Position numbers and translations under genes: made by a program. A stretch of 64,000 nucleotides of DNA from Mariniblastus fucicola (GTDB taxonomy: Bacteria; Planctomycetota; Planctomycetia; Pirellulales; Pirellulaceae). Shown one piece after another: positions 42,347-49,544 of this stretch. Positions within the stretch are counted from its first letter, which is position 1. Each line of letters starts with the position of its first letter. The stretch lies in the NCBI RefSeq assembly GCF_008087665.1, contig NZ_CP042912.1:4836001-4900000 (forward strand). Reading direction: 5' to 3'. Under the pieces are notes generated by a model. It was not told where the DNA came from and searched no databases. It saw only the letters and a program-made list of their open reading frames with translations.

Positions 42347-42605
42347 GTGGGACCTTGCGATGAATTATTCTGCGGCGTGGGATTTGGGCCGTGGTCTACG
42401 GGCCAATGCATTAAACCAATTGTGGCAAGAAAGTTCTCGCCTCAATTGCATGGGCCGATATCGAAACTTGGGATTATTGTCTATAATCCAGCTAATAGTA
42501 GGGTTTCAGAAAACCCCAGACAATACCGATCCGTGATCAGTACGTCTGCTGCGATCCTGTTTGTTCAGTCCCTGTTCGAAAATCTCACTGGAAGTTCTTC
42601 CTGCC

Positions 42606-44441
42606 GTGCCAGCGTTTTTGATGATGAACTCGGGCTCCAATTCAGGGGCCAGATTTGAACTCAGTGCCGAAGAGGACAATTTTCTCGGCCGCGACTGGGA
42701 GTGCCGTGTTGTTCTCAACGACCCTCAGTGTTCCCGTAAACACGCCCGGATTTACACCAATGAAGACGGTTGGTGGATCGAAGACAACGGCAGCAGCAAC
42801 GGCACGTACGTCAATGGTCAGACGATTCGGGAAGCCAGGCTCGACGAAGGACATTTGATCCGTGTCGGCGGCAGCGCTTTCACGTTTACCGAATCTGCCA
42901 CCAAGACGCTTCCCGAAGAGGAAAGCAAAACGGGCGAGATGCGAGGTCCGGCGGCACAGACCGTGATCTTTGACGAATCGCACGACCCGATGGACACCGG
43001 TCAGTACACGTTGTCGTTCCTGAAAGGACATGATTGGGGCCAGGACTTTTTCTTCCTGTTCCAGCTCAGCGTCAAACTGCTGGGACTCGACGACCCGGAT
43101 GCGATGATCCAAACCAGCATCAAACGGCTTAGCGAACGCACAGACTCAAGTGCCGCCGGGTTCCTTTGGGCATCCGATGGAGGAAAGCTGACTCCGAAAG
43201 TTGTCTATCCGAAAGAGTTGGCGAATGAACTGACGCTCGACCCGGAGTTGACGCGTCGTGTCGTTGCGCAAGGGCACGCGATTCGATTTGAGTACGACAC
43301 CAGACACCAGGATAGTTTCACGGACAGCATTTGCGTGCCGCTGAACTCGGATGGCAAGATCAAGGGCGCGATCCATCTGTATAAAAAAGGCACCCGTTTC
43401 CACGATTCGCATTTCAATCTCGCATGTGCAATTGCCAATATCATGGTTCGGTCGCTGGACCGTGCGGACCGACATAGCGTGTTGGCGGCGGATCATTCGC
43501 GACTGAAAGAAAAGTCTGCGAACTTTGACGAGTTGCTGGGCGAGAGCCCGAAGATGCTGGAGCTGAAGTCGAAAATTCAGCGTGTCGCCAAAGCTTCTGG
43601 CTGCGTTCTGGTTCGCGGTGAAAGCGGAGCCGGTAAGGAACTGGTCGCTCGAGCTCTGCACAAAGCCAGCCCTCGAGCTGATCGGCCGATGCTCAGTGTC
43701 AACTGTGCCGCGATCCCACGGGATCTGATGGAGAGCCAGTTGTTCGGCCACAAGAAGGGCTCGTTCACCAGCGCCGATCGTGACCACAGCGGTTGGTTTG
43801 AACAGGCTGACCGCGGGACACTGTTTCTCGACGAGATCGGCGAACTGACTCTTGAAGGCCAGGCCAAACTGCTGCGAACGCTGGAGGGGCATCCCTTCCT
43901 TCCCGTCGGCGGAACGGAAGAAATTTCGGTTGACGTTCGTGTTATCTGTGCGACGAATCGTGACCTGAAAGAGTTCGTGGCGGAAAAGCGTTTCCGCGAG
44001 GATCTGTTTTATCGGCTGAGCGTGTACGAGCTTTACATTCCGCCGCTGCGAGATCGTGAAGCCGACATCGAGATGTTGGTGAACCACTTCCTCGCTCACT
44101 TCAAAACGCAACACGGAAAACATGACTTGCAGTTGTCACGCGAAGCTAAAGCCAGGTTGATCGGCTATCAATGGCCCGGCAATGTTCGTCAGCTTCGCAA
44201 CGTGATTGACAGCGCGATCGTGATGGCGGAAACCAATGAAGTCGCCGCAGATGAACTTGGAATTCGCGATGCGACCGACGGTGAATTCGAAACGCTTCGC
44301 ATCGATCACTGGGAACGCAAGTTGATTGTTGACGCGCTCAAACGAACTTCGAACAATGTGCCTGGTGCGGCAGAGTTGCTGGGCATCAGTCGGGCGACGT
44401 TGTATCGTAAGATTGAACAGTATGGTGTGGTGCGTAAGTAG
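42606..44441 (+). CDS. FHA-GAF-AAA+ sigma54-type regulator with altered GAFTGA motif
   Basis: A GTG start at 42606 places the FHA domain at residue 1, with GRDWECRVVLNDPQCSRKHAR and SSNGTYVNG as the phosphothreonine-binding loop. A GAF-like region (about 140-300) follows. The AAA+ domain has Walker A VRGESGAGKE near 338 and Walker B GTLFLDEIGEL. The sigma54 contact loop reads GSFTSA instead of GAFTGA, so true sigma54 activation is in doubt. The C-terminal Fis helix-turn-helix has NNVPGAAELLGISRATLYRKI. Phosphorylated partners are probably read through the FHA domain. It is followed by an AP2-type gene after seven bases. Confidence 0.9.
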   Translation: MPAFLMMNSGSNSGARFELSAEEDNFLGRDWECRVVLNDPQCSRKHARIYTNEDGWWIEDNGSSNGTYVNGQTIREARLDEGHLIRVGGSAFTFTESATKTLPEEESKTGEMRGPAAQTVIFDESHDPMDTGQYTLSFLKGHDWGQDFFFLFQLSVKLLGLDDPDAMIQTSIKRLSERTDSSAAGFLWASDGGKLTPKVVYPKELANELTLDPELTRRVVAQGHAIRFEYDTRHQDSFTDSICVPLNSDGKIKGAIHLYKKGTRFHDSHFNLACAIANIMVRSLDRADRHSVLAADHSRLKEKSANFDELLGESPKMLELKSKIQRVAKASGCVLVRGESGAGKELVARALHKASPRADRPMLSVNCAAIPRDLMESQLFGHKKGSFTSADRDHSGWFEQADRGTLFLDEIGELTLEGQAKLLRTLEGHPFLPVGGTEEISVDVRVICATNRDLKEFVAEKRFREDLFYRLSVYELYIPPLRDREADIEMLVNHFLAHFKTQHGKHDLQLSREAKARLIGYQWPGNVRQLRNVIDSAIVMAETNEVAADELGIRDATDGEFETLRIDHWERKLIVDALKRTSNNVPGAAELLGISRATLYRKIEQYGVVRK

Positions 44442-44448
44442 GACGTAG

Positions 44449-44904
44449 ATGGCTCGCAAGAATCCACGTCGCAACATTTCACGCGTTGAGCATCTTGACC
44501 GTGACGGAAAATCCAGCGGCTGGCTGGTTCGCATGCAGCGGAAGTACGAAAAGATTAGCAGCTTCTTTTCGGATTCCGTCTACGGCGGCAATCGGGCCGC
44601 GCTTCAGGCAGCCAAAGAGTTCCGTGATGAATTGGAAAGCGAATCCGAAAAGCTGACGACCGAAGAGCGAAGTGCCGCACCTTCGACTCGCAACAAAAGC
44701 GGCGTTGTTGGTGTTCGGCTGCATCGCCAAAAAGACGTTCGTGGAAAATACGAATATCAATACTGGTATTGGGTCGCCCAATGGATCGACGGGCGGGGCA
44801 GACGACGAACCCGCTCGTTTTCAATCCACAATCACGGCGACGACAAAGCGTACCGCATGGCGTGCAAGGCCAGACGCGAAGGCGTTGCCAGCGCACATCG
44901 ATAG
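44449..44904 (+). CDS. AP2-like DNA-binding protein
   Basis: The 151-residue basic protein has an AP2/ERF-like fold at its C-terminus: SGVVGVRLHRQKDVRGKYEY, then YWYWVAQWIDGRGRRRTRSF, then a helix KAYRMACKARREGV. This matches bacterial AP2 domains that bind DNA in homing endonucleases and phage proteins. The N-terminal 50 residues are basic and unknown. It follows the FHA-GAF-AAA+ gene by seven bases and may be its partner or target-side regulator. A domain assignment from sequence alone is uncertain. Confidence 0.75.
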   Translation: MARKNPRRNISRVEHLDRDGKSSGWLVRMQRKYEKISSFFSDSVYGGNRAALQAAKEFRDELESESEKLTTEERSAAPSTRNKSGVVGVRLHRQKDVRGKYEYQYWYWVAQWIDGRGRRRTRSFSIHNHGDDKAYRMACKARREGVASAHR

Positions 44905-45064: not shown

Positions 45065-46126
45065 CTACTGAGCCGAAGTCCGAAAACCGTCGGGGCCGCC
45101 AGAGATTGGACGACCGGCACTTAGAGGCCAGCTGGCCATCTGAAACCCGTGCTCGTGAAGCCAGTCTTTGAGCTTTGCATGCGAGTCGTAGCTGTTCGGA
45201 TAAACCCAAACCGAAACCGTTGTGCGGCGCGGCTCAAGGCGACTGAGAACGTTCATGAAATGCGAGCCTTCCTGCAACGCCTGCTCCATCGGCTCGCCAA
45301 CGTCCGAAGAAACGGGCTGAATCGTGAATCGCTTGAAACGTACGACGCGAGCATTCGGCTGGCCGGTCTGACTGTCAGGAACGATGCCCAACTCGTACTG
45401 CAAACGGAATCCGTTGACCGGACCGATGGTTTCCCGAGTCCCGTCGGCCTGCTTCAGCTTTTCAGCCTTGAGCCGGATCTCGCCCTTCATCTGTTCGATC
45501 AACTGGTCCATGGGAACGTGCACAATCCGGCCACGATCAAGCCGGAAGTGGATCTCGTTGGAGAATACGGTTTTGGCAATCGGATTCGGAAAGTGATCAA
45601 TCGTTTCCACCGACGTTTCGATCTGAGTCACAGAAACCGCGTTGATCGATTTCTCGAGTGACTCCAACTGCGACACCAATTGGATTTTCTCGGATTGCAG
45701 CTCCAGTTGTTTTTGCTGTTGTTGATTCAGCTCGTCGCGGACTTCCTTTTTTCGCTGTTCGTGTTTGGCGCGAACGAACTCAAGCTGCATCAACATCGTG
45801 TGGCGACGAGTCGCGAGTTGCTGAGCCAGACGCTTTTCGTCGTTGGCTTGCATCTCCAAACGTGCCAGGTCCAGCCGTAGTTTGCTGGAGACCAATTCGC
45901 GAGAGGCCTGTTCAGCCTGCAGGTTTACCTTCTGTGTTTCGAACGCCAAGTCCTGCTCTGCTTCCTCCGCCTGCTGAGCGACCGCAGATTCGGTATCGGG
46001 CTCCGCAAGTAAACCTGACGTCGCCTGAGCTCCGACGATCACGACCAGAATGATCAACACGCCAACAAGGTTCGCGATGATGTCGAGGAACGAGTCCTGG
46101 CCTTCATTGAGATTGTTGAGGCTCAT
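45065..46126 (-). CDS. ExbD/MotB-like membrane protein with membrane Asp
   Basis: The 353-residue protein begins with a membrane helix (about 13-35), reading SFLDIIANLVGVLIILVVIV. The Asp aligns with the essential proton-carrying Asp of ExbD, TolR and MotB. A coiled coil (about 50-165) follows, with segments such as LDLARLEMQANDEKRLAQQL. The C-terminal domain (about 190-353) is a periplasmic unit not recognised as OmpA-like. The start overlaps the upstream gene by four bases. It is the third gene of the ExbB-like operon. Confidence 0.7.
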   Translation of the reverse strand: MSLNNLNEGQDSFLDIIANLVGVLIILVVIVGAQATSGLLAEPDTESAVAQQAEEAEQDLAFETQKVNLQAEQASRELVSSKLRLDLARLEMQANDEKRLAQQLATRRHTMLMQLEFVRAKHEQRKKEVRDELNQQQQKQLELQSEKIQLVSQLESLEKSINAVSVTQIETSVETIDHFPNPIAKTVFSNEIHFRLDRGRIVHVPMDQLIEQMKGEIRLKAEKLKQADGTRETIGPVNGFRLQYELGIVPDSQTGQPNARVVRFKRFTIQPVSSDVGEPMEQALQEGSHFMNVLSRLEPRRTTVSVWVYPNSYDSHAKLKDWLHEHGFQMASWPLSAGRPISGGPDGFRTSAQ

Positions 46127-47838
46127 GGTGACACCTCCTCGATCCCCAAACCGCTGCCGCGAAGCATCTGCTTGATCGACTGGAACTGCTGTCGGGCTCC
46201 CGGTTCAACGACGACGGCCAGGTTTGGCTTCCAGTACGCGCTGGCACCGGCGATTCCCCAAGCGTCGATTCGCTGCCATATGATGTTCACCATCTTGTCG
46301 ATCGCTTCGGCCGGCTGATTCTTGTATGGAATTACGATCGTATCACCAGCCACGTTTTTGATAGCCAGTGAGTCCTTTCCACAGACCAAACCGACAGGCC
46401 GGACGTAGCCGGTAGCGCCGCTGGTTTGCGTTGGCAGCGCCCAATCGGCACCGCGTGCGTTGGCGAGGCTATCGCTGGGAGTCGTGGTTCCGTTGGCGTT
46501 CGAACCGCCGGCGCCCTGCTTCATGCTGCTCGCAAAACTGGCGTTGGTGTTCCGGGAATTATTGGAATCGAAGCGTGATGCAATCTTCGAATTCTGGAAG
46601 TCACCGCCGTTCGCAACATCCTGCGGGCCAGGCGAATCGGTTCCCATTTCGGAACTGTTTGGACTGCCGAAATCGCCACCGCTTTCTCCGCGGGATTCAG
46701 ACTCCTGATAGGCGACTTGCTGGTTTGCCTTTTGTCCAGTCCCTGCCGACGCTGGTGAAAATCCACCTTTGCGAGCAGAACTTCCTCGCTGCGAGGATGA
46801 TCCAAATCCGCCTGAATTTCCAGCTCCGGCGCCAACGCCACCGTCCTGCGCGAATCCGCGCCGGGCGCTAGCCAAAGCAGCGCGCCGCTGCCGGAGAGCC
46901 AACTGAGTCAATTTGGATTTCTTGACCGCGTCCTGAATTTCGCTTTCCAGCTGCGGGTCGATCGTTCCAAAATCGAGATCTTTCTCCTGCGACACCAACT
47001 CGTATCCGAATTCGTCGTCCCAACTGATCAACGAACGACGAGCCAGCCCGTAAGACTGTGCACCGTCGGGGCGAACCACCAACAGAGGATAAGGGCGCTG
47101 GTCTTTATCAGCCAGTTCATGCTGTTGATAGTAATTTCGAACCGTCGACAAAGCCGCATCGACAGGATTGCCTGCTGCGACAGGATGAAAGAAATCTTCG
47201 CGAGACAGCTTGATACCCCACGGCTGCAGCACCAATCCGTCACGATTACACTCCACAAACACCGGTACGCGTTTCGTCCCTCCGGTGCCGTGGTAGGGTA
47301 CGATCGCGTACTTCTTTTGCTCGATCGTCGTAACTTCGCTGCGTTTCTGTTCCAGCCGGGATTTGGCCAGTTCGACTTGATCGCGAAGTCGTTGCAAATC
47401 GTTGTCATCCACCTCAACCACTGCGTCTTTTCGATCCTCGTCCAACAGCTTCATTTCGTCGACGAGTCGCTGAGCCTGCGATTCAAGTTCGGCCAGCTCT
47501 TTTTCCAAATGAGCCCGGTAGTCGCGAGCCGAAGTAAGTTCACGGCGTGCCTCGGGACGCATTTCTTCAAAGCCTTCCGCTTCGAGAATGCTTCGATCGA
47601 TATCGTCTTCCAGTTTATCGATCAGCTGCCTCTGTTGCTCGCGTTTCGCCGTCAGTTCAGCTTGAGTTTCCGCAGCCGATTCAGCAATGGCATTGGCGTG
47701 ATCCGCCTGCTTGATACTGGCTGACTTGACGGCCAGCACCAGCAACACGATCAGCACTCCCAGCGTACAAATGAGCACGGCCAGAAAGGGAAACAGCGAG
47801 ACTCCGGGCTGCGTTGATTTTGGACGTCGGCGCCTCAT
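46123..47838 (-). CDS. ExbD-like membrane protein without membrane Asp
   Basis: The 571-residue protein has one membrane helix near the start, VSLFPFLAVLICTLGVLIVL. It has the ExbD-like SLFPF entry but no Asp in the helix. A coiled coil (about 40-190) is followed by a domain that reads AIVPYHGTGGTKRVPVFVEC and then LLVVRPDGAQSYGLARRSL. A Gly/Ser/Asn-rich linker and a C-terminal domain (about 470-571) close it. It overlaps both neighbours by four bases, so the three are translated together. Partner role to the Asp-bearing protein is inferred. Confidence 0.65.
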   Translation of the reverse strand: MRRRRPKSTQPGVSLFPFLAVLICTLGVLIVLLVLAVKSASIKQADHANAIAESAAETQAELTAKREQQRQLIDKLEDDIDRSILEAEGFEEMRPEARRELTSARDYRAHLEKELAELESQAQRLVDEMKLLDEDRKDAVVEVDDNDLQRLRDQVELAKSRLEQKRSEVTTIEQKKYAIVPYHGTGGTKRVPVFVECNRDGLVLQPWGIKLSREDFFHPVAAGNPVDAALSTVRNYYQQHELADKDQRPYPLLVVRPDGAQSYGLARRSLISWDDEFGYELVSQEKDLDFGTIDPQLESEIQDAVKKSKLTQLALRQRRAALASARRGFAQDGGVGAGAGNSGGFGSSSQRGSSARKGGFSPASAGTGQKANQQVAYQESESRGESGGDFGSPNSSEMGTDSPGPQDVANGGDFQNSKIASRFDSNNSRNTNASFASSMKQGAGGSNANGTTTPSDSLANARGADWALPTQTSGATGYVRPVGLVCGKDSLAIKNVAGDTIVIPYKNQPAEAIDKMVNIIWQRIDAWGIAGASAYWKPNLAVVVEPGARQQFQSIKQMLRGSGLGIEEVSP

Positions 47839-49544
47839 GCGGCCCTTCGGTTCCCGTTTGATTCGTCAGAATTCTTCGACGCACGCACGCCACTGACAGG
47901 CACTTTGAAAGTCACGTCCGAACTTGAGATGCCGCCCGCATCGCCTGCAAGGGCTCGGGCAACTCGCGCCGAATTCGACTGGTTGATCACCTGTGTGTCG
48001 CTGACTTCCACAGGAAACTTGATTGAATCGAATTCGCGTTCTGAATCGGCTGGGGGCGCATCTTCAACAGCGTCATCAGACTCGTTGAACAGCCGAATCG
48101 TTGGCTGTTCGAGCTCGACATCATCTTCAATCGATTCGACAACTTCCTGATCCACGTCTGCCACAACGATGTTGTCGGCAGAGCTTTGAGCCGCAACAGG
48201 ACTTTGCGTCGCGACAGGACTTTGCGTCGCAACAGGACTTTGCGTCGCAACAGGACTTTGCGTCGCAACAGGACTTGCCAGCGGTGCATCTGCGACCAAG
48301 CCAGCGTCTTTGACCTTTTCCAGCAGCTCATTGAGCACTCGGTGCGTTCGCGTCGTCGCCAGAATGGCATCCTGCTGATGTTGCAGAGCAGCATCGAAGG
48401 CGGTGGAGTTTTCCAGTGACCCGACAATCGTTTGCACCGACTCGGTTTGGCTTGCCAAAGTCAGCAAATGCTTCTCCATCAGCCTCGCATTCTCCGACAG
48501 GCAAACTTGCCACTGCGACCAGCGATGCGAAATCGACATATCAGCTTTCTCGATCGCCTCGCCAAGATAGTGAGCCAATGCCGCGATGTTTTCGTCCAGC
48601 GATTCGGTCAACTGATTGCGAACGAGGTCACTGGTCTGAGTCAGCGATGCCGTCCACGCCTGTTCGGCTTTGCGAATGCTGTCTCGCCAGATCTCGGTCT
48701 GGTCGACCATCACATTTTTAATCGTCTCGATGACCTGTTGTGAGTCAAAGCTTCCGCCGCTGGCGGTCAGTTCGTAGTGTCTGGCAATTTCAGATCGAGC
48801 ACGCTGATCCACCAGTCGCAACAATTGTGATTCGAAACGCTCAACAAGGAACTGGGCGAACATCATGACCATCGACAAAGTCAACGCGAGTGCCGTGGTA
48901 TCGAAGGCGATGTAGAGGTTGCCTCGCAGCCCATCCATCATCTGTTGGAAATCATTGTCAGGCCCGACAGCAATCCCACCGAGCGCCTGTGAAATACCGA
49001 GAACCGTGCCGAGGAAACCCAGCATTGGCGTGGCCCAAATCAGGATTCGTACCAGTGCGTATCGTTGCTGTTGACGTTCCAGATCGATATCGGAAAGGTA
49101 CTTCAGTTCCTCTTCGACGTTCCCGGTCGAACCCGTGCGGTAGATCGAATGCACAGCATTGACCAGTCGCTCCCACAAATAGTGGCTGTGCAACCGATCT
49201 GGCAGATCCAACATTGACTGCCCATGATCAACAGCGGTCTCGCGGACGTCTTTTCCTTCAGCGCCGTTGGAATCGGTGCCTTCTTCGCCCAGCGTAATTT
49301 CGCTTTCAGAGGAAAACTGTCCGACCAAATTCCACCCAATCATCATCAACGATGACATTCCAATCAGCGCCATCGCGACGGTGATTCTGGAAACCGGGTG
49401 GCCGGTCAGGTAGCGTAAAACGGTTTCGTCGGCGATCGCTTTTGTGTCAATCAAATACTGCAGCCCAAGGTAGAAGCTCAGCCCAAGACAGACCGGTACG
49501 ACCAGCGATGGGAGAACAGTAATCCAGCTTGGAGTTCGTTTCAC
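47835..49544 (-). CDS. MotA/TolQ/ExbB-like proton channel protein with long tail
   Basis: The 569-residue protein has four membrane segments: near 10-30, 55-77, 165-190 and 210-235. The third carries ATPMLGFLGTVLGISQALGG, the core motif of the MotA/TolQ/ExbB family. The fourth, LYIAFDTTALALTLSMVMM, carries the conserved Thr residues. After the channel there is a 300-residue cytoplasmic or periplasmic tail with coiled coil and five SPVATQ repeats. The family couples proton flow to motion or to outer-membrane work. It leads a three-gene operon with two ExbD-like partners. Confidence 0.85.
   Translation of the reverse strand: MKRTPSWITVLPSLVVPVCLGLSFYLGLQYLIDTKAIADETVLRYLTGHPVSRITVAMALIGMSSLMMIGWNLVGQFSSESEITLGEEGTDSNGAEGKDVRETAVDHGQSMLDLPDRLHSHYLWERLVNAVHSIYRTGSTGNVEEELKYLSDIDLERQQQRYALVRILIWATPMLGFLGTVLGISQALGGIAVGPDNDFQQMMDGLRGNLYIAFDTTALALTLSMVMMFAQFLVERFESQLLRLVDQRARSEIARHYELTASGGSFDSQQVIETIKNVMVDQTEIWRDSIRKAEQAWTASLTQTSDLVRNQLTESLDENIAALAHYLGEAIEKADMSISHRWSQWQVCLSENARLMEKHLLTLASQTESVQTIVGSLENSTAFDAALQHQQDAILATTRTHRVLNELLEKVKDAGLVADAPLASPVATQSPVATQSPVATQSPVATQSPVAAQSSADNIVVADVDQEVVESIEDDVELEQPTIRLFNESDDAVEDAPPADSEREFDSIKFPVEVSDTQVINQSNSARVARALAGDAGGISSSDVTFKVPVSGVRASKNSDESNGNRRAA
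48193..48279 (-). repeat. 18-bp tandem repeat, nearly five copies, inside the ExbB-like gene
   Basis: The unit gcaacaggactttgcgtc is repeated almost perfectly and encodes SPVATQ in each copy. Being in multiples of three, copy-number change would leave the frame intact, so the linker length may vary between strains. Confidence 0.9.

Follow-up and report, generated by a model that had tools for sequence, protein, structure and literature searches.

Can an ion-driven motor of the MotAB/ExbBD/TolQR kind run on an axle that carries one ion-binding aspartate instead of two? The question is raised by three adjacent genes on the minus strand of a 64,000-nucleotide stretch of the Mariniblastus fucicola genome (contig NZ_CP042912.1, positions 4,836,001 to 4,900,000; hereafter the window, to which all coordinates refer unless stated otherwise). 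In transcriptional order they encode a MotA/TolQ/ExbB-type wheel protein (P1; 47835-49544; 569 residues, GTG start), a putative axle partner that lacks the Asp and has a membrane helix, a coiled coil and two ExbD-like heads (P2; 46123-47838; 571 residues), and a putative axle partner that bears the Asp and has a membrane helix, a coiled coil and one ExbD-like head (P3; 45065-46126; 353 residues). Models of the motors with five wheel and two axle subunits (5:2) rest on two equivalent ion-binding Asp residues, and a review describes the ten-fold symmetry of these motors as 'almost certain' to be universal (PMC9389320). A conserved one-Asp axle would break this rule, and a motor built on it would make the step size and the number of ions per turn testable. 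We consider it probable that the trio is a motor of this kind, with a P2/P3 heterodimer as the axle inside P1.

Unequal membrane helices in P2 and P3

The membrane segments of P2 and P3, compared on their own, aligned with an hhalign probability of 92.5% (E 4.9e-7), and the alignment placed Ala20 of P2 opposite Asp15 of P3. Residues were tabulated across 101 distinct trios, which were left from 113 after near-identical P2 had been dropped. The presumed ion-binding residue of P3, Asp15 (codon GAC, 46082-46084, minus strand, in the motif DSFLD), was Asp in all 101. The aligned residue 20 of P2 (codon GCC, 47779-47781, minus strand), the site of the proton-binding Asp, was Ala in 93, Asp in four, Thr in three and Ser in one. 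The Asp in the membrane helix that characterises ExbD and TolR is therefore present in P3 and missing from P2, and the preliminary description of the locus, which had assigned the Asp to the last gene only, is borne out both at the aligned site and across the distinct trios. P2 as a chance look-alike was rejected, as the protein is conserved and homologous to P3.

The genome of M. fucicola itself supplied a comparison. It encodes ten classical ExbD proteins, all with the Asp, including four tandem pairs that each follow one ExbB gene (at genome positions 256040, 629088, 5738124 and 5879465). Since all ten keep the Asp, what is ordinary in this genome is the layout, and what is not ordinary is the missing Asp. 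The suggestion that every tandem ExbD pair is asymmetric was rejected on the same grounds.

A shorter paralogous system was also observed (L103, L165-L172 and L175), in which P2 is about 270-320 residues long with mostly Ser at the Asp site, and P3 is about 375 residues long; in two genomes (G111 and G202) its P1-P2 genes lie far from the P3-like gene. The Ser was read in most of these short relatives (L103, L165-L167, L169-L172 and L175), and the site is Asp in the more distant L173, L174 and L177. Pattern-based tallies that included the short relatives left 11 P3, four P2 and four P1 rows unparsed; the C-terminus of P3 was commonly Ala-Gln (85 of the tallied P3 rows).

Neither P2 nor P3 passed a Pfam cut-off, and PF02472 gave no match to them up to E 1. 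The sequence libraries yielded only coiled-coil-type or weak matches, and Foldseek searches with the whole models returned no match at E up to 0.001. The AlphaFold models had a mean predicted local distance difference test score (pLDDT) of 78.5 for P2 and 85.6 for P3, and each showed a single membrane helix together with long helices of the coiled-coil type, in agreement with the single-span, coiled-coil proteins proposed in the preliminary description. Helices were predicted at residues 17-138 and 145-169 of P2, and at residues 10-36 and 48-166 of P3.

All of the parts described here are encoded on the minus strand. In P2, the predicted coiled-coil region (residues 37-169; 47332-47730; model m28982dae7a5a) is followed by a first head with a putative TolR/ExbD-like fold (residues 178-283; 46990-47307; TolR 5by4, Z 6.0, 85 residues aligned), a Gly/Ser-rich linker (residues 335-452; 46483-46836) and a second head with a putative ExbD-like fold (residues 476-570; 46129-46413; ExbD 8p9r, Z 6.2, 70 of 73 residues aligned). 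The linker, modelled at low confidence (pLDDT <50), is flexible and separates the two heads, which are small alpha/beta domains homologous to each other (profile alignment probability 86.8%). In P3, the coiled-coil helix (residues 48-166; 45629-45985; model me538ec56d1f1) leads to a single, putatively ExbD-like head with an insertion (residues 190-343; 45098-45559), for which the periplasmic ExbD dimer 8pek was the best match (Z 7.1, 86 of 98 residues aligned).

Wheel type and the residue at P2 position 20

P1 scored 39.7 bits against Pfam PF01618 (MotA_ExbB; cut-off 22.9), and its earlier assignment as an ExbB/MotA-like channel protein stands. By eye, it comprises two N-terminal hydrophobic segments, a pore pair formed by transmembrane helices 3 and 4 (TM3 and TM4), and a long variable tail. 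Both pore threonines of the wheel family are present: Thr180 of TM3 (GFLGTVLGIS; 49005-49007, minus strand) is Thr in 100 of the 101 distinct trios, and Thr217 of TM4 in 99. The latter closes the AFDTT motif (Asp215-Thr216-Thr217; 48894-48902, minus strand), in which Thr216 is kept in 100 trios and Asp215 in 91; the P1 of L206 was misaligned here (Pro at 215) and is unreadable in the residue table. The residues at Gly183-Ile184 (48993-48998, minus strand) are Gly in 96, His in four and a gap in one, and Ile in 94, Phe in four, Leu in two and a gap in one, respectively.

Asp215 has a hydrophobic counterpart in the wheels compared. The matching position is Ile, Val or Leu in all seven classical wheel proteins that M. 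fucicola encodes (read by eye), and in ZorA it is Leu182, two residues ahead of Ser184 (counted by hand on the alignment). We take residues 147 and 184 of ZorA to line the ion path. Judged from sequence, Asp215 is a second acid near the pore, which may either complement the ion site or take it over. Were it to take over, Asp215 would be the working carboxylate and the axle acids would be secondary; GldLM offers a parallel, as its GldL subunit cannot do without Glu49 (PMC8986121). The position of Asp215 beside the pore Thr in 91 of 101 P1, with aliphatic residues in the classical wheels, fits such a relocation, as does the Asn at 215 in the four P2-Asp trios that were found first. However, P3 Asp15 is better conserved than P1 Asp215, and some of the trios with P2-Ala have a P1 with Asn, Gly, Ala or Ser at this position. 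A relocated ion site is therefore considered unlikely.

The four P2-Asp trios found first (L073, L089, L090 and L271) all came from genomes with a different P1. This alternative P1 reads GTVxHFG and AFNTT or AFNTS (His183-Phe184 and Asn215), versus GTVxGI and AFDTT in the usual P1; for L073, L090 and L271 the P1 assigned to the trio is the alternative one, located elsewhere or on the other strand. The P1 of the four trios form one clade (support 1.0), and their P2 and P3 scatter among P2-Ala relatives. A tree of the P2 and P3 bodies without the membrane helix was built from 55 rows (all P2-Asp rows then known, chosen neighbours and 32 random others). On it, a single clade of the four P2-Asp trios was rejected by the approximately unbiased (AU) test (p 0.00094), and four changes are needed.

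Of 396 genomes searched from the order, 21 contain the alternative P1, with scores of 342 to 769 bits as against 243 for the next match. It always shows GTVxHFG, and both P2 and P3 were present in all 21. P2 residue 20 was acidic in 19 of these genomes (Asp in 18, Glu in G275); the remaining two have Ser (G267) and Ala (G465). None of the 97 distinct trios that lack the alternative P1 has an acid at this site. The P3 Asp was kept in all 21 genomes and in G253.

In G465, a resident P1 with the pore Thr and AFDTT still precedes the P2-Ala gene. In its sister G253 (P2 64% identical), the resident P1 is without the Thr (GGIVGL, ALDVL) and P2 has Asp; such recurrent wheel changes provide natural pairs, G465 and G253 among them, for asking what sets the number of axle acids. 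The resident P1 of G426 (family f7) is likewise without the pore Thr (LGALSRG, VALDMIA), the other five f7 genomes have a second P1 match whose pore was unread, and the pore region of the resident P1 is unrecognisable in G293. No second full-length P1 match was found in most of the remaining alternative-P1 genomes. Resident P1 copies at L271:1895-3424, L323:3-1481 and L376:5387-6457 have retained their operon place and tail and lost the pore Thr. Each of the genomes concerned encodes the alternative P1 as well, and it is possible that such copies serve as pseudo-wheel subunits.

A quick tree was also made for P2, from 73 rows (the 55-row set and 18 added). Its starred branches forced six changes at P2 residue 20, and nine occurred on the best tree. 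The P1 type changed in the same direction in 5.5 of the six forced changes on average, and never in the opposite one. The association could be a by-product of shared ancestry or of the joint transfer of P2 N-termini with P1. The pairs are few (sign test p 0.03 to 0.06, with G465 scored as 'usual P1' by its intact resident P1, a choice that was made only once the genome had been seen), the P2-Asp helices share features (Ser or Thr in place of Pro17 in several), and the alternative P1 lies on the contig of P2, within a few kilobases, in 11 of the 21 genomes. However, it lies on another contig than P2 in the other ten, a single origin of the four P2-Asp rows as one clade fails the AU test on the P2 and P3 bodies, and recombination of the helix alone would itself show that helix and wheel must match. 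We regard a by-product as highly improbable. A strict exchange of charge between P1 215 and P2 20 was rejected, because L244, L256 and L270 combine Asn in P1 with Ala, Ser or Thr in P2, two distant relatives (L173 and L177) combine Glu in P1 with Asp in P2, and P1 is non-acidic in L255, L259, L261 and L269.

Because the P2 residue changes with the pore type of P1, P2 residue 20 most likely faces the pore, and P2 is therefore best placed inside the wheel together with P3. The alternative placement would build the axle from two copies of P3, each with its Asp, in the manner of ExbD, and would make P2 an accessory outside the channel (TonB/TolA-like) or a wall anchor. P3 alone bears the full axle signature, with the Asp in every distinct trio, and the extra heads and long flexible linker of P2 would suit an accessory. 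However, the change of residue 20 with P1 type at no fewer than six places in the tree (at least six) is hard to explain outside the pore, and the spans of P2 and P3 co-vary, as described below. P2 as a TonB/TolA-like transducer was rejected, since its helix in the window is without the SHLS motif and without His (PMC12204202), and its heads are ExbD/TolR-like. We judge a P3 homodimer with an external P2 to be quite unlikely.

Spans, co-occurrence and the proposed axle

The membrane-to-head spans, counted from the Ala/Asp site up to the point where the head begins, ranged from 138 to 231 residues in P2 and from 137 to 243 in P3, and were strongly correlated (Pearson 0.945, Spearman 0.82; 111 trios with full P2 and P3). 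Phylogenetic contrasts over the 105 of these trios that also had P1 gave r 0.91 for the P2 and P3 spans, a value reached in none of 2000 sign flips, and the 20 other pairs among seven length features gave contrasts of at most 0.48. Removal of the ten largest products left a contrast correlation of 0.71, and restriction to spans under 170 gave 0.60. In the longest P2/P3 pairs, most of the additional residues sit immediately outside the membrane, and some of them belong to the coiled coil. P2 and P3 are matched in reach, as expected of a pair.

Both proteins also occur together. The preliminary description had proposed the presence of both partners in every genome as a check, and P2 and P3 were both matched in 60 of 60 genomes (M. 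fucicola and 59 relatives from its genus, family and order), some of the matches being fragments. A phylum-wide sample comprised 195 genomes, of which 27 were either that of M. fucicola or assigned to its family, order or class. Both proteins were matched in 26 of these 27; the exception (G137) had neither P2 nor P3 and was also without P1. A genome with a single partner, which had been named as evidence against the pairing, was not encountered within the class. Outside the class, both profiles matched in four genomes (three with the short type), P2 alone in five and P3 alone in eight, the single matches being weak (E 7e-7 to 6e-4). A scan of species genomes gave 453 P2 relatives among 464 pattern matches, of which 80 were kept; these were mostly Pirellulaceae, Pirellulales or Planctomycetaceae, and included Mariniblastus, Blastopirellula and Thermogutta. 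Blastopirellula marina DSM 3645 is one of the carriers of the trio (L223). In one genome (G254, locus L269) P3 lies on a different contig from P1-P2. The trio is a widespread, unnamed machine of this planctomycete class.

These two results bear on a further arrangement, in which P2 and P3 form separate homodimers that take turns in one wheel, the P3 pairs active and the P2 Ala/Ala pairs idle or regulatory. The coupling of P2 residue 20 to P1 would fit a P2 homodimer in the pore, the P2 and P3 genes overlap by four bases in only 48 of the 101 trios, and for AglQ and AglS of Myxococcus xanthus, both of which carry a conserved Asp, a review likewise leaves the choice between hetero- and homodimers undecided (PMC9389320). 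However, the lengths of P2 and P3 co-vary specifically, and every genome of the class with either partner has both. Alternating homodimers appear very doubtful to us.

We therefore return to the P2/P3 heterodimer. The obligate heteromeric stator of the preliminary description gains indirect support from the co-occurrence, from the co-varying spans and from P2 residue 20 tracking the P1 type; its 5:1:1 stoichiometry, rotation, and about five ions per turn instead of ten are what we infer for it. In the proposed mechanism, P1 would be the wheel, and the membrane helices of P2 and P3 would run through it. Their coiled coils would lie side by side and reach the ExbD-like heads in the periplasm. 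The ion would be bound by P3 Asp15 only; level with it, P2 would offer a residue that is small and uncharged, in most cases Ala. The usual wheel (Thr180, Thr217 and the extra Asp215 beside the TM4 threonines) would be matched to such a one-Asp axle. Where the usual P1 has been lost, has decayed or has been replaced and the alternative P1 (His183-Phe184, Asn215) is present, P2 nearly always carries Asp or Glu and the axle would have two acids.

A more specific version, which we put at somewhat short of an even chance, is a one-legged axle. A P1 pentamer would surround P2(Ala)/P3(Asp) and pass about five ions per turn in 72-degree steps, not ten in 36-degree steps, with the ring of wheel Asp215 residues as the counterpart. 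On this version, the changed-wheel lineages with two-acid axles would amount to a swap experiment run repeatedly by evolution. As to the role in the cell, our guess is an autonomous envelope-spanning force generator in this planctomycete class.

Several observations weigh against the heterodimer axle or the parts from which it is assembled. The matches of the heads to ExbD and TolR are middling (Z 6 to 7), amid unrelated chains that score up to Z 6.4; among the re-aligned PDB chains, YqgF 7w89 ranked first for the P2 heads (Z 6.4), followed by 8p9r and then 5by4. Profile comparison of the parts of P2 and P3 with the ExbD proteins of the same genome gave no sequence match (probability at most 0.6%). 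In G267 the alternative P1 is the sole P1 match, and P2 residue 20 is nevertheless Ser; the resident P1 of G465 has Arg at 183. The combinations of P1 215 and P2 20 in L244, L256, L270, L173 and L177 and the sign test given above belong here too, and the trees are quick ones that do not tell gain from loss. Among spans under 170, removal of the five largest products lowered r to 0.39. The raw length of the P1 tail also correlated with the spans (Spearman 0.50 and 0.63), although its contrasts were only 0.14 and 0.09. Equal lengths could also arise if two proteins separately reached one layer of the envelope.

Known motors and the surroundings of the operon

The preliminary description knew of no system with this layout, which was too strong a statement. 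AglR-AglQ-AglS consists of a wheel and two ExbD/TolR-like partners (PMC9389320), and four ExbB-ExbD-ExbD trios are found in the genome of M. fucicola itself. The gene order of AglR-AglQ-AglS, one MotA/TolQ-like wheel gene and then two ExbD/TolR-like genes (PMC3169522), is that of the trio and its relatives. In contrast, AglQ and AglS both have the Asp (PMC9389320), where P2 has Ala20, and they are short PF02472 proteins (162 and 194 residues), whereas P2 and P3 have long coiled coils and no PF02472 match. Heterologous axle pairs encoded with a TolQ-like gene are also described, namely TolR-like pairs in the Planctomycetes-Verrucomicrobia-Chlamydiae group, and TPH-vWA pairs, whose TPH helices are predicted to insert into the pentamer (PMC12204202). 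The TPH-vWA pairs differ from P2/P3 in having the Asp in each member (PMC12204202), as do the four ExbD pairs of M. fucicola. Paired axle genes are thus already known; what sets the trio apart is that one partner consistently lacks the Asp, in step with the type of wheel. In the available portions of a mainly open-access literature, including PMC9120999, PMC3858216, PMC12505986, PMC11658791 and PMC10632474, no motor with one conserved Asp-less partner was found. The main text of an essential-gene study of Planctopirus limnophila mentions no ExbB, TolQ, MotA or ExbD.

ExbB5-ExbD2, TolQ5-TolR2 and MotA5-MotB2 share with the trio the PF01618 wheel with its pore Thr, an axle helix with one Asp (P3) and heads that in P2 and P3 are putatively ExbD/TolR-like. 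Their axles are homodimeric with two Asp, in contrast to P2 Ala20, the extra P1 Asp215 and the lack of a PF02472 match. Zorya shares the long cytoplasmic tail of the wheel protein. ZorA was the best PADLOC match of P1, at a weak E of 1.2e-4, and ZorA 8qyy was the best-scoring motor protein in the PDB search with P1 (E 0.0035); the PADLOC scan listed no ZorB match for P2 or P3. Zorya differs in having one axle gene where the trio has two, and the trio is spread across a whole class. GldL-GldM of gliding Bacteroidota resembles the trio in the importance of a wheel acid and in an axle whose shaft extends far through the periplasm (PMC8986121, PMC9389320). It differs in that GldM is a homodimer and that P1 belongs to PF01618.

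The window operon contains only these three genes. The three open reading frames and the four-base overlaps of the preliminary description were confirmed, with ATGA at both junctions: the P1 stop and P2 start overlap at 47835-47838, and the P2 stop and P3 start at 46123-46126 (both minus strand). Among relatives, a four-base overlap is common and not universal. It was present between P1 and P2 in 82 of the 97 trios counted, window included, and between P2 and P3 in just under half, as given above; a first, smaller set of loci had given 32/35 and 16/40, respectively.

The flanking genes vary between the loci (93 inspected). UbiA-like and gatB-like genes, both assigned by eye, are present at 28 and 27 of them, respectively, and an AP2-type gene at 22, and no function could therefore be deduced from the neighbours. 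In the window, the AP2-type family is represented by a small protein (44449-44904, plus strand) whose DNA-binding domain match of 32.9 bits is just below the Pfam cut-off of 33.3; the window is one of the 22 loci. An FHA-GAF-sigma54 activator, identified by Pfam scan, also lies near the trio (42561-44441, plus strand).

The C-terminus of P1 is Ala-Ala (47838-47843, minus strand). Of 120 usual P1, 97 have this ending, as do all but one of the 21 alternative P1, versus 8 of 515 background open reading frames. It follows a very variable tail, is present in 13 of the 17 P1 without the ATGA overlap, and from sequence looks like a C-terminal recognition or degradation signal. Within the tail, residues of about 424-452 form tandem SPVATQ/SPVAAQ-like repeats, which give rise to a Pfam Cementoin match.

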